DNA of 64,000 nucleotides from Shimia aestuarii (GTDB lineage: Bacteria > Pseudomonadota > Alphaproteobacteria > Rhodobacterales > Rhodobacteraceae). Location of the stretch: contig NZ_FOTQ01000001.1 of the NCBI RefSeq assembly GCF_900114635.1, positions 930,001 to 994,000 of the forward strand. The letters run 5' to 3'. Shown in pieces: positions 18,934-48,537 of the stretch. Below the pieces are notes generated by a model that was not told the DNA's origin, searched no databases, and was given only the letters and a program-made list of their open reading frames with translations. Every line of letters begins with the position of its first letter. Within the stretch, counting starts at the first letter, position 1. Made by a program: the position numbers and the translations under genes.

Positions 18934-19644
18934 ATGCGCTTTCAAACCCCTCTTTTGCCCGCCGTGCTGATCCGCCGCTACAAACGCTTTCTCGCCGATG
19001 CCCGGCTCGAGGACGGCACCGAGATCACCGCCCATTGCGCCAATCCCGGTTCCATGATGGGGCTGGCTGATCCGGGCAGCCGGATCTGGCTGGAACCCAA
19101 TGACGACCCGAAGAAGAAACTGAAATACGGCTGGCGGCTGGTCGATCATGAGAATGGCCATTTCACAGGTGTCGACACCTCGGTCCCGAACCGTGCCCTC
19201 AAAGCCGCGCTGATGGCGCATCAACTCCCCGAACTCGCCGCCTACCCGATGGTGCGCAGCGAGGTGAAATACGGCGAAAACAGCCGCATCGACTTTCTGC
19301 TGACCGGTGACGACTTGCCCGACCTCTATGTCGAGGTAAAATCCGTCACGCTCTCGCGCAGCCCCGGCTTGGCCGAGTTTCCCGACAGCGTCACTGCGCG
19401 CGGCACCAAGCATCTTGGTGAATTACAGCAGATGGTCACCGCCGGCCACCGTGCCATGATGCTCTACCTTGTCCAGCGCACGGATGCACAAACCGTCACC
19501 CTCGCGCGGGATATCGACCCGACCTATGCCGCCGCCTTCGCCGCCGCACGCGCCGCCGGAGTCGAGGTCATGGCCTATGGCTGTCAGATCACCCCCGACG
19601 CCATCGACATTGGCACGCGCCTGCCGTTCCACGACGCCCCCTGA
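18934..19644 (+). CDS. sfsA: DNA/RNA nuclease SfsA
   Basis: 236 aa. Family landmarks include RRYKRFLADARLEDGTEITA, the CANPGSM motif and the nuclease-like core SRIDFLL...LYVEVKSVTLS with the Asp/Glu/Lys set of a PD-(D/E)xK fold. SfsA was first linked to maltose gene expression and later to sugar fermentation stimulation; nuclease function is the current family view. ATG 18934 begins the conserved N-terminus. It is followed by map. Confidence 0.93.
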   Translation: MRFQTPLLPAVLIRRYKRFLADARLEDGTEITAHCANPGSMMGLADPGSRIWLEPNDDPKKKLKYGWRLVDHENGHFTGVDTSVPNRALKAALMAHQLPELAAYPMVRSEVKYGENSRIDFLLTGDDLPDLYVEVKSVTLSRSPGLAEFPDSVTARGTKHLGELQQMVTAGHRAMMLYLVQRTDAQTVTLARDIDPTYAAAFAAARAAGVEVMAYGCQITPDAIDIGTRLPFHDAP

Positions 19645-36263: not shown

Positions 36264-36545
36264 TCAGGCGCAAGCGCCCTGTGGCCGCATTTCCAGGTGC
36301 ACGTGCTTTCGCAACTCGGCAATCAACTGGGCCTGCGCCATGCGCTCGCCGGGGTCGGTCAACTGCATCAACCGCGCTTGTGCGGTAACGATCTGCCGGT
36401 TGAGAAGCCCAATCAAACTGTCCCTGCGCGTGTTCGAACGGACATCTTCGTGCGACCGGGGCACCGCCGCCAGACGCAAGGCACCGTCCGGGCGTTCAGC
36501 CAGCTTCAAAGCTCTTTGAATAGCGTGATGCATCTGTTTGCGCAT
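36264..36545 (-). CDS. Hypothetical protein, small helical
   Basis: 93 aa from ATG 36545, chosen because GGGAAGGA lies 7 bases upstream; the frame extends further to 36608 or 36620. The sequence is helix-rich and basic (MRKQMHHAIQRALKLAER, then LIGLLNRQIVTAQARLMQL). Family not recognised. It is convergent with amtB and divergent from hemP. Confidence 0.55.
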   Translation of the reverse strand: MRKQMHHAIQRALKLAERPDGALRLAAVPRSHEDVRSNTRRDSLIGLLNRQIVTAQARLMQLTDPGERMAQAQLIAELRKHVHLEMRPQGACA

Positions 36546-36728
36546 CTGAAATCCTTCCCGACCCGGCATCGGGTCCTTGTCTTCATGCCATGTCTTGTTA
36601 GCGGTCATATGGGAGCGCATCCGTCGTTTTTCAGGGGCAAAACACAGTCGTGACAGGAACTCACAAAAGATTGACGCCTCCGGTCAAACAGCCCCCTCCG
36701 ACAAACGGACACTTCAACTTGACATATC

Positions 36729-36743
36729 TGACTGTTTTTGTCA
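36729..36743. promoter_or_regulatory. Iron-responsive operator (IRO/RirA-type) upstream of hemP
   Basis: TGA-N9-TCA (TGACTGTTTTTGTCA), extended to CTGAC/GTCAG, matches the RirA-type iron operator described for alphaproteobacteria. A -35-like TTGACA lies 4 bp upstream (36719-36724), so bound regulator would cover the promoter. Confidence 0.6.
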
Positions 36744-36808
36744 GTTTATTTGCAACAGCCACCCGACAGGGAAGCCAACAATCCAGACCATCACTGAAAG
36801 AGGCTCGC

Positions 36809-36967
36809 ATGACGGTGCACCAGCCATTTGCCCCGACCACCAACCTGACCCCGATCCACGATGCAACGCGCCTGACCGGCGACAATGGCCTTGCCCATAT
36901 TCAGCTTGGCGACCAGCTCTATACGCTGCGCATTACCCGCGCCGGAAAGCTGATCCTGACCAAGTGA
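36809..36967 (+). CDS. hemP: Hemin uptake protein HemP
   Basis: 52 aa. The C-terminus GDQLYTLRITRAGKLILTK is the HemP family signature. HemP/HmuP proteins are small regulators or accessories of haem uptake genes. AAGAGG precedes ATG 36809. It stands alone here; no hmu transport genes are adjacent. The IRO-type operator at 36729 supports iron-starvation induction. Confidence 0.88.
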   Translation: MTVHQPFAPTTNLTPIHDATRLTGDNGLAHIQLGDQLYTLRITRAGKLILTK

Positions 36968-37076
36968 GCGCAGGCGCGACACATGCGCCCGGCCACATAA
37001 GATACTCACGCGACTTAACCCTCCCTTAGATATTTGACGCCACCCTGAGCGCAATTCTTTGCTGGGATTGAGTTTC

Positions 37077-38045
37077 ATGGAGTTCTGGTTGCGCAACATC
37101 AAGGCTGTCATCTGCGCATGTCTCGTGAGTGTCCTCCTCGCGCAAACAGCCTTGGCGCGCTGCGGCCTGCCCGATGATGTCATGCACCTGTGGGAGCAAT
37201 TGGAGACCGCCAGCGCCATCTCCGGTGCAGATCAGGCGGCCTGGGCTCACCGGCTCTCGAACGCATCGGGCCGGGTCGACATGGGCGCCGTGAGCAAGAA
37301 ACTCTTCTCCGTCGGAATGCCAAACAGCCGCACGCAGGTGGACGTGCTCTTGCGCGAGGCGCAGAGGTTCGGGGGCGACAGGGACTGGTTCGATCGAAAA
37401 CAGCTGCGCCGCCAGCTCGACCTTGTTGAACAGTTGGACATCCTTGTTTGCAAACTGGAAACCTCCGATGGCAGGTCCGGCGACCGGACGGAGCCCGAAA
37501 AGGTCGGCAAGTCCAACGCACAGATGCCCCTGCCCCGCCAACTCCTTGATTCAGAGGGCATGTTGAGAATGGGGGTGCTTCTCGGGGTCGTAGCCCTGAT
37601 GATCCTCCTGATCTTCGCGATCAGAGTGGCCTTTGACTGGGCCTATGCCGTCACCCACAACCGTCGCAGCTGCCGGATACAGGCCGTCGTCGAATCGGGG
37701 CTGGACGTGATCGACGGACACATCACCATTCTCGGGCGCAAGGGGTGCCGTTTCCAGCCGGTCAACGAAGGCGCCTATGCCCGGCTCGAGCAAACGGCCC
37801 AGGCCCGATACGTAACACTCTATGTCAGTGATCACGCTTTCCCAATGCTGATCGACGGGACATATGGCCATTTCGCCGCCCTCTATTTCAATGTGCCGCT
37901 CAGTCGGGAAGGACAGGGAACCCTGCTAGGGTATTCGTCGATGACCCCCAGATACGTGCCCCGCAGCAAGACCACTGCACGGACACGCAAGAGCAAGCAG
38001 GCGGACAGGGCTCATTCGCCACACGGCTCGCGCGCCAGCGGATAA
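37077..38045 (+). CDS. Membrane protein with signal peptide and C-terminal PilZ-like domain
   Basis: 322 aa. An N-terminal signal sequence (AVICACLVSVLLAQTALA) precedes a helical periplasmic part with two to three cysteines (residues 25-150). A membrane helix (MGVLLGVVALMILLIFAIRVAF, about 165-188) leads to a cytoplasmic domain beginning HNRRSCRIQAVV and ITILGRKGCRFQP, which resembles PilZ. The canonical PilZ c-di-GMP pattern (RxxxR, then D/NxSxxG) is only partly kept, so ligand binding is uncertain. The basic tail is low-complexity. Family not named with confidence. Confidence 0.7.
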   Translation: MEFWLRNIKAVICACLVSVLLAQTALARCGLPDDVMHLWEQLETASAISGADQAAWAHRLSNASGRVDMGAVSKKLFSVGMPNSRTQVDVLLREAQRFGGDRDWFDRKQLRRQLDLVEQLDILVCKLETSDGRSGDRTEPEKVGKSNAQMPLPRQLLDSEGMLRMGVLLGVVALMILLIFAIRVAFDWAYAVTHNRRSCRIQAVVESGLDVIDGHITILGRKGCRFQPVNEGAYARLEQTAQARYVTLYVSDHAFPMLIDGTYGHFAALYFNVPLSREGQGTLLGYSSMTPRYVPRSKTTARTRKSKQADRAHSPHGSRASG

Positions 38046-48489: not shown

Positions 48490-48537
48490 CCGGGGGCGCT
48501 GCCCCCGGACCCCCGGAGTATTTTTGGCAAAATGAAG
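48490..48537 (+). repeat. Dispersed intergenic repeat, copy D
   Basis: GGGGGCGCTGCCCCC, then CCCCCGGAGTATTTTTGGCA and AAATGAAGGAG. Its tail supplies the AAGGAG ribosome site used by dgcA. It lies between dgcN and dgcA. Confidence 0.75.

Follow-up and report, generated by a model that had tools for sequence, protein, structure and literature searches.

The window, by which we mean the whole 64-kb stretch of DNA analysed here, corresponds to positions 930001–994000 of contig C18 in a genome (G000) of the genus Shimia in the broad sense, which comprises 27 contigs and has an estimated completeness of 100%. It contains a 52-codon open reading frame (ORF) that matches the hemP profile PF10636 at 53.3 bits, above the curated cut-off of 25, and a whole-genome search found this single hemP copy. 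Upstream lie a gene that we named amtB by eye and an opposite-strand 118-aa ORF (36264–36620). By eye, the product of the latter is like F36, a small protein encoded divergently from hemP in several members of the genus. Downstream, a 328-aa ORF (37059–38045, plus strand) is followed by an aromatic aminotransferase gene on the opposite strand, and neither is a haem gene. The 328-aa protein has an apparent signal peptide and a membrane segment by eye, and it has no match in Pfam or NCBIfam. Inspection of the neighbouring ORFs and searches against Pfam and NCBIfam revealed no haem gene adjoining hemP. The initial annotation had described a 52-aa HemP with a clear family signature that stands alone, with no haem transport genes behind it; the profile match bears out the former and the neighbouring ORFs the latter. 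The features of the locus are collected in Table 1.

Table 1 Features at the hemP locus, in window coordinates.
Feature	Position	Strand	Basis
Putative −35 hexamer TTGACA	36719..36724	+	Sequence; its ACA lies within a conserved block, matrix consensus ACATACCTGACTAAATTAGTCAGATTAAG
Iron-Rhodo-box / IscR-type operator CTGAC-N7-GTCAG	36728..36744	+	Matrix score; conserved before hemP of many relatives
Leader RNA element	36757..36777	+	AGCCA 36757–36761; stem CCC/GGG, 36762–36764 with 36769–36771; AGCCA 36773–36777
Ribosome-binding site AGAGG	36799..36803	+	Sequence
hemP, 52 aa plus stop	36809..36967	+	PF10636, 53.3 bits; dN/dS 0.033, 0.025
F1 start position in most relatives	36964..36967	+	ATGA in those relatives, GTGA in the window, where F1 is absent

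The hemP gene is under purifying selection, with dN/dS of about 0.03 in comparison with its two nearest relatives. Over the last 38 codons, where dS is about 1, the ratio was 0.033 against locus L096 and 0.025 against L095, both from genomes without a TonB receptor and without HemS. For nine more distant copies it was 0.06–0.14 or not computable. When the PDB was searched with a HemP profile, it matched 2loj (a “putative cytoplasmic protein”; E 8.5e-05) and 4ynx (YdiE; E 4.4e-04), while the single window sequence matched no chain at E 0.01; the two structures are thus distant relatives at the profile level. The NCBIfam profile PRK10183, which we take to be YdiE, gave 27 bits against the window HemP, below its cut-off of 77. 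The structure model of HemP is of moderate quality (pLDDT 79.5, pTM 0.48).

We searched for the haem uptake genes on which a HemP protein might act. The genus set comprised 25 genomes, our own included, and all 25 carry hemP, with 41 copies in total. Searches with PF05171 (HemS, the common family of haem-degrading proteins) and PF00593 (TonB-dependent receptor) each gave matches in 16/25 genomes of the genus but none in our genome, where first-look candidates for a receptor numbered zero as well. Imelysin (PF09375) likewise had no match in our genome, whereas control genomes did match. Eight of the 25 genomes (G000, G001, G003, G005, G007, G008, G010 and G023) have hemP with neither HemS nor a TonB receptor, and G020 has no receptor and one HemS match. 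To place these counts in the family, 160 genomes from different genera were sorted into those with hemP and a receptor (69), hemP only (24, our own included), a receptor only (17) and neither (50). The receptor count of 86 genomes applies at E ≤ 0.001, with 85 over the cut-off. This split shows that hemP and receptors are associated (odds ratio 8.5), though a quarter of the hemP-bearing genomes (24/93) have no TonB receptor match.

The 41 hemP copies of the genus were classed by synteny and sequence; the classes are our own, and the neighbouring genes were named by eye. Class A has 23 copies, including the one in the window, most of which neighbour amtB or precede a serine-protease-like gene. 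Nine of the 10 class B copies precede an operon of imelysin-like and di-haem-oxidoreductase-like genes. Class C has eight copies, three of which (L076, L077 and L088) are within 4 kb of hmuR, hmuS and hmuT seeds. Class A is present in 8/9 receptor-less genomes of the genus.

In 19/23 class A loci, the end of hemP overlaps the gene for an unannotated protein of 147–180 aa, which we call F1. Of 84 rows (19 from the genus, 55 named and 10 from the family), 82 have an F1 start codon right at the ATGA-type overlap; this count includes duplicates, sets aside one opposite-strand match and takes as start the codon nearest to the overlap. The proteins share a conserved stretch, RH-x3-C-x-C-x-G-x-DE, and the structure model is confident (pLDDT 90.3) and mostly helical. 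None of 29 members matched Pfam at E 0.1; in another set of 13 members searched with a limit of 1, there were single-member matches only, the best at 0.0074. Matches in NCBIfam were also confined to single members (best 0.039), the best E value among PDB sequences was 0.89, and a search of the F1 fold against the PDB returned nothing at E ≤ 0.001 (best 0.86). Of five plasmid records containing F1, four label it “hypothetical protein” and one leaves it unannotated. F1 is absent from our locus and from L096, L075 and L087, that is, from 4/23 class A loci, and an F1 profile search of our whole genome, run without a positive control, found nothing. One example of F1 is at L145:6156–6629. The overlap with the hemP stop also occurs in other Rhodobacteraceae, and at several loci imelysin-like and di-haem-oxidoreductase-like genes follow F1.

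The putative operator begins three bases behind TTGACA. It contains TGACTGTTTTTGTCA (36729–36743), the TGA-N9-TCA box that the initial annotation had described as overlapping the promoter zone, and the box proved exact. The operator was scored with a matrix of 29 columns trained on 84 distinct boxes that precede other hemP genes, with the window excluded; as the training boxes were chosen for their resemblance to the palindrome, the score is partly circular for the palindrome but not for its flanks. The operator scored 37.0 bits, while the second-best distinct site in the window reached 9.1. In a scan of contig C18 (1,572,858 bases with overlaps) that assumed a slightly different base composition, the values were 36.1 and 20.9 bits, respectively. 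Among 56 comparison tiles of the locus, none matched the 10 palindrome letters equally well. Four genomic sites have the bare palindrome, the same count as in the control read backwards, and it is therefore not over-represented; the case for the operator rests instead on its context and conservation. One of the palindromes, at C15:309213, has neighbouring genes of transposase-like appearance by eye and was taken to be a chance occurrence, and two further ones on C18 scored below 8.5 bits with the matrix.

The box is well but not fully conserved: measured against 6,311 background tiles, it exceeded the 99th percentile at 35/40 genus loci, 66/80 named loci and 13/27 receptor-less family loci, many of which were also in the training set of the matrix. 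The highest background tile, at 37.5, reaches the level of a true hemP box because hemP leaders had not been fully removed from the background. In the same comparison, the boxes of the two nearest relatives scored 26.1 and 34.9 bits and our own 31.4. A second box of the IscR type (L253:14681–14709, near 54481 on C18; 20.9 bits) stops 12 bases short of a 275-aa ORF, which is followed by a protein that we take to be a PiuC-type dioxygenase. This is likely a further member of the iron regulon.

Two Rrf2 proteins may be considered as readers of the operator. One is an IscR-like protein, and the gene adjoining it presumably encodes a cysteine desulfurase, as recognised by eye. The IscR-like protein (L106) scores 145 bits against TIGR02010, below the cut-off of 207.55, and has the single-Cys motif APCPAV as in the literature (PMC4618611). 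The other is closest to RirA, at 126 bits against a cut-off of 193. The leader of iscR itself in our genome reaches only 8–9 bits with the box matrix. In Rhodobacter sphaeroides, IscR binds the hemP promoter (PMC4618611), and hemP (RSP_6006) has an Iron-Rhodo-box promoter and is strongly induced by iron limitation (PMC4618611, PMC3413700, PMC4176601); one source gives it a value of 34.7 among the genes that rise in iron limitation (PMC3413700). Our hemP resembles this member of the IscR regulon in the Iron-Rhodo-box at its promoter. It differs in standing alone, whereas co-transcription with irpA-bfd-bfr is presumed for the R. sphaeroides gene. By analogy, we infer that IscR controls hemP through the Iron-Rhodo-box in our organism as well. 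The initial annotation had suggested an iron operator of the IRO type read by RirA: the iron operator is supported, but RirA is a less likely, though still conceivable, reader than IscR in view of the single-Cys IscR-like protein; the RirA-nearest protein scores well below its cut-off.

The comparison of hemP leaders revealed an element between the box and the start codon that consists of AGCCA, a short hairpin and a second AGCCA. The pattern AGCCA-N8-26-AGCCA was found in 76/148 hemP leaders versus 92/11,022 background tiles, although the 148 are not independent because they include duplicate records, close relatives and many Ruegeria. It is present in 19/23 class A leaders of the genus and in 7/8 class A leaders of receptor-less genomes; outside the genus this strict pattern is uncommon at receptor-less family loci (8/27). 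Both the box and the element are kept at our locus and in the two nearest receptor-less relatives. With a looser rule (a GCCA repeat and a stem of at least 3 bp), the counts were 19/23 for class A, 0/10 for class B, 0/8 for class C, 47/80 for named loci and 6/27 for receptor-less family loci, with a background of 9.5%.

The hairpin of the element shows covariation. Its inner stem has at least three base pairs in 59/62 distinct examples, compared with about 26% of shuffles. For the alignment, 46 of the 62 examples were used, with 14 that have long or unusual inner parts and two near-copies left out; this selection biases the outcome towards a clean signal, and the aligned sequences themselves served to derive the structure. 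In this alignment, 93.5% of the cells of a four-pair stem are paired. The covariation score was 0.428, compared to 0.104 in shuffles, none of 500 being as high, and slid controls that keep the relatedness of the sequences gave at most 0.045. Both partners had changed in three of the four pairs, for one of these pairs in just one sequence, and 10/500 shuffles reached this count of three; two of the four pairs carry nearly all the change. The stem in the window is of 3 bp only, and the folded window leader is no more stable than its shuffles (z −0.76; 42/200 at least as stable). Rfam gave no match to 36600–37100 up to E 1.

A covariance model of the element (R1) gives the window copy 29.8 bits. 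Among 60 genus loci (697 kb: 40 hemP regions, 16 hmuS and 4 receptor loci), it produced 15 matches up to E 1, mostly to members of its training set, and all 15 are class A hemP leaders (15/22); the hmuS and receptor loci had none at that limit. In a set of 67 loci (40 of the 80 named and the 27 receptor-less family loci), the model gave 13 matches, each of them upstream of hemP at a distance of no more than about 300 bases. Over C18 (1.57 Mb, with about 63% of the genome lying outside), the hemP copy has an E value of 0.031 and the next hit 18.5 bits and 3.1. The simple AGCCA-stem-AGCCA pattern occurs at three further places on this contig. A copy at window 19064–19091 (minus strand), with a perfect 7-bp stem, lies opposite a coding frame, scores 10.6 bits with the covariance model and is probably due to chance; the copy at L278:13329 is inside a long coding frame, and there is no long frame at L286:13705. 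A separate repeat, GAGTATTTTTGGCAAAATGAA, is found at window positions 48516 and 59506 and at nine further places on C18, making 11 copies in 1.57 Mb, one of which has A for T.

A similar signal was sought at haem uptake genes in the genus. AGCCA repeats lie 13–42 bases before the start of hmuS at 5/16 loci. With the looser rule and a stem of at least 4 bp, 5/12 hmuS loci were positive, two of the five being nearly identical and 4/16 having been dropped as they offered no anchor, against a background of 4.5% (P about 1e-4). At four receptor loci without hemP (L110–L113), the AGCCA repeat is absent. The link between the element and hmuS is weak.

The window HemP is similar to HmuP of E. meliloti and B. 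japonicum, HemP of B. multivorans and ChuP of C. violaceum in its Pfam family, small size, conserved C-terminal core and iron-type operator. The proteins of those species regulate TonB receptor genes (PMC9131926, PMC11442138), whereas no TonB receptor was found in our genome. HmuP and ChuP are reported to raise the expression of a receptor gene, post-transcriptionally in two species; ChuP binds haem, and the presumed site of HmuP and ChuP is the HPRE, which consists of direct repeats within the 5′ leader (PMC9131926, PMC11442138, PMC9241770). Other HemP proteins are reported by these sources to be direct transcriptional activators, and HemP of S. maltophilia represses (PMC9241770). Whether HemP/HmuP targets DNA or RNA is a point on which reports differ (PMC9131926). 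The HPRE is described as a direct repeat (PMC9241770), and the one predicted for chuR of C. violaceum has AGCCA repeats in the 5′ leader (PMC9131926). The element before our hemP shares with it a direct repeat of AGCCA, at 36757 and 36773, in what would be the 5′ leader given the expected transcription start. HPREs, however, are reported upstream of receptor genes (PMC9131926, PMC9241770), whereas our element precedes hemP and has a covarying hairpin between its repeats. As it stands before hemP rather than a receptor gene, we call it HPRE-like only. Considering the role of HPREs and the AGCCA repeats in that of chuR, we therefore propose that class A HemP may bind the element in its own leader.

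We propose that hemP encodes a functional protein induced by iron starvation, whose job would be independent of a TonB haem receptor and HmuS, with IscR as its probable controller and the leader element most likely HemP's own site; on the sequence evidence, we consider the chances of this reading to be about even. Holo-IscR on the box that overlaps the promoter would keep hemP repressed as long as Fe-S clusters abound. Iron starvation would release IscR, as is seen in R. sphaeroides. The transcript would start a few bases before AGCCA-hairpin-AGCCA, judging from the spacing to TTGACA. HemP would then bind this structure in its own leader, amounting to post-transcriptional autoregulation. A similar signal would serve in trans at hmuS in some of the relatives that have hmu genes.

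The element may have another reader altogether. It could serve a different RNA-binding protein, the protection of the 5′ end or a processed small RNA, with no binding of HemP, which we regard as unlikely but well worth considering. Its position, only a few bases from the expected 5′ end, fits such functions, as does its absence from hemP classes B and C and from most receptor-less family loci. There is also a precedent in Burkholderia cenocepacia, where the small RNA BrrF derives from the 3′ end of the hemP mRNA (PMC7377471), so hemP transcripts can be dual-function. BrrF, however, comes from the opposite end of the transcript and, according to that source, is not found outside Burkholderiales (PMC7377471); the likeness to the direct repeat of the HPRE and the AGCCA repeats before some hmuS genes favour HemP as the ligand. 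Alternatively, HemP could act in trans on iron genes unrelated to TonB, such as those for ABC ferric uptake, Feo or storage, with no part for the leader element. ChuP of Chromobacterium also controls a siderophore receptor (PMC9131926), which indicates that HemP is not confined to haem, and many relatives have hemP as the first gene of an operon with imelysin-like and di-haem oxidoreductase-like members. On the other hand, the C18 scan shows just one other box, of moderate score, before the 275-aa ORF and the PiuC-like protein, and we hold action on such genes to be possible though unlikely.

Two further explanations relate HemP to haem uptake itself. The gene may be a relic of lost haem uptake on its way out, as could be suggested by the loss of F1 here and at three other class A loci of 23 and by the lack of an imelysin family match in the genome. 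Yet the dN/dS values against the two relatives without receptor and HemS, together with the retention of the box and leader element at all three loci, make such decay improbable. The initial annotation had suggested that HemP may work in trans, its target being an hmu locus at a distance, which would agree with the known role of HemP/HmuP (PMC9131926, PMC11442138) and with the AGCCA repeats upstream of hmuS in some hmu-bearing members of the genus. The hmu cluster that it suggested looking for elsewhere in the genome is not there by PF05171 and PF00593, searches that succeed in most genomes of the genus. A distant hmu locus is thus ruled out for our genome unless the assembly misses it, and we consider this explanation highly improbable.

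Here, an established protein family and an established operator turn up in a context where they were not expected. In the literature searched, which covers earlier work only in part, we found no report on a receptor-less hemP or on an HPRE at hemP itself, nor an earlier description of the leader element or the F1 family, and we do not claim priority. In a broader and rather doubtful extension of our proposal, again drawn from sequence comparison, HemP would be an RNA-binding regulator with a minimal, self-contained circuit through its own leader, which would have outlived haem uptake in Shimia and its kin. In receptor-less species, it would work in iron or haem homeostasis rather than import, with F1 or, once F1 is lost as here, without it. 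Those characterised members of the family that the sources cited here describe are tied to receptor genes. A lineage that keeps HemP, in which no TonB receptor was found and whose hemP has a covarying element in its own leader, cautions against taking the annotation “hemin uptake protein” literally and offers a minimal system for the question of whether HemP acts on DNA or RNA.
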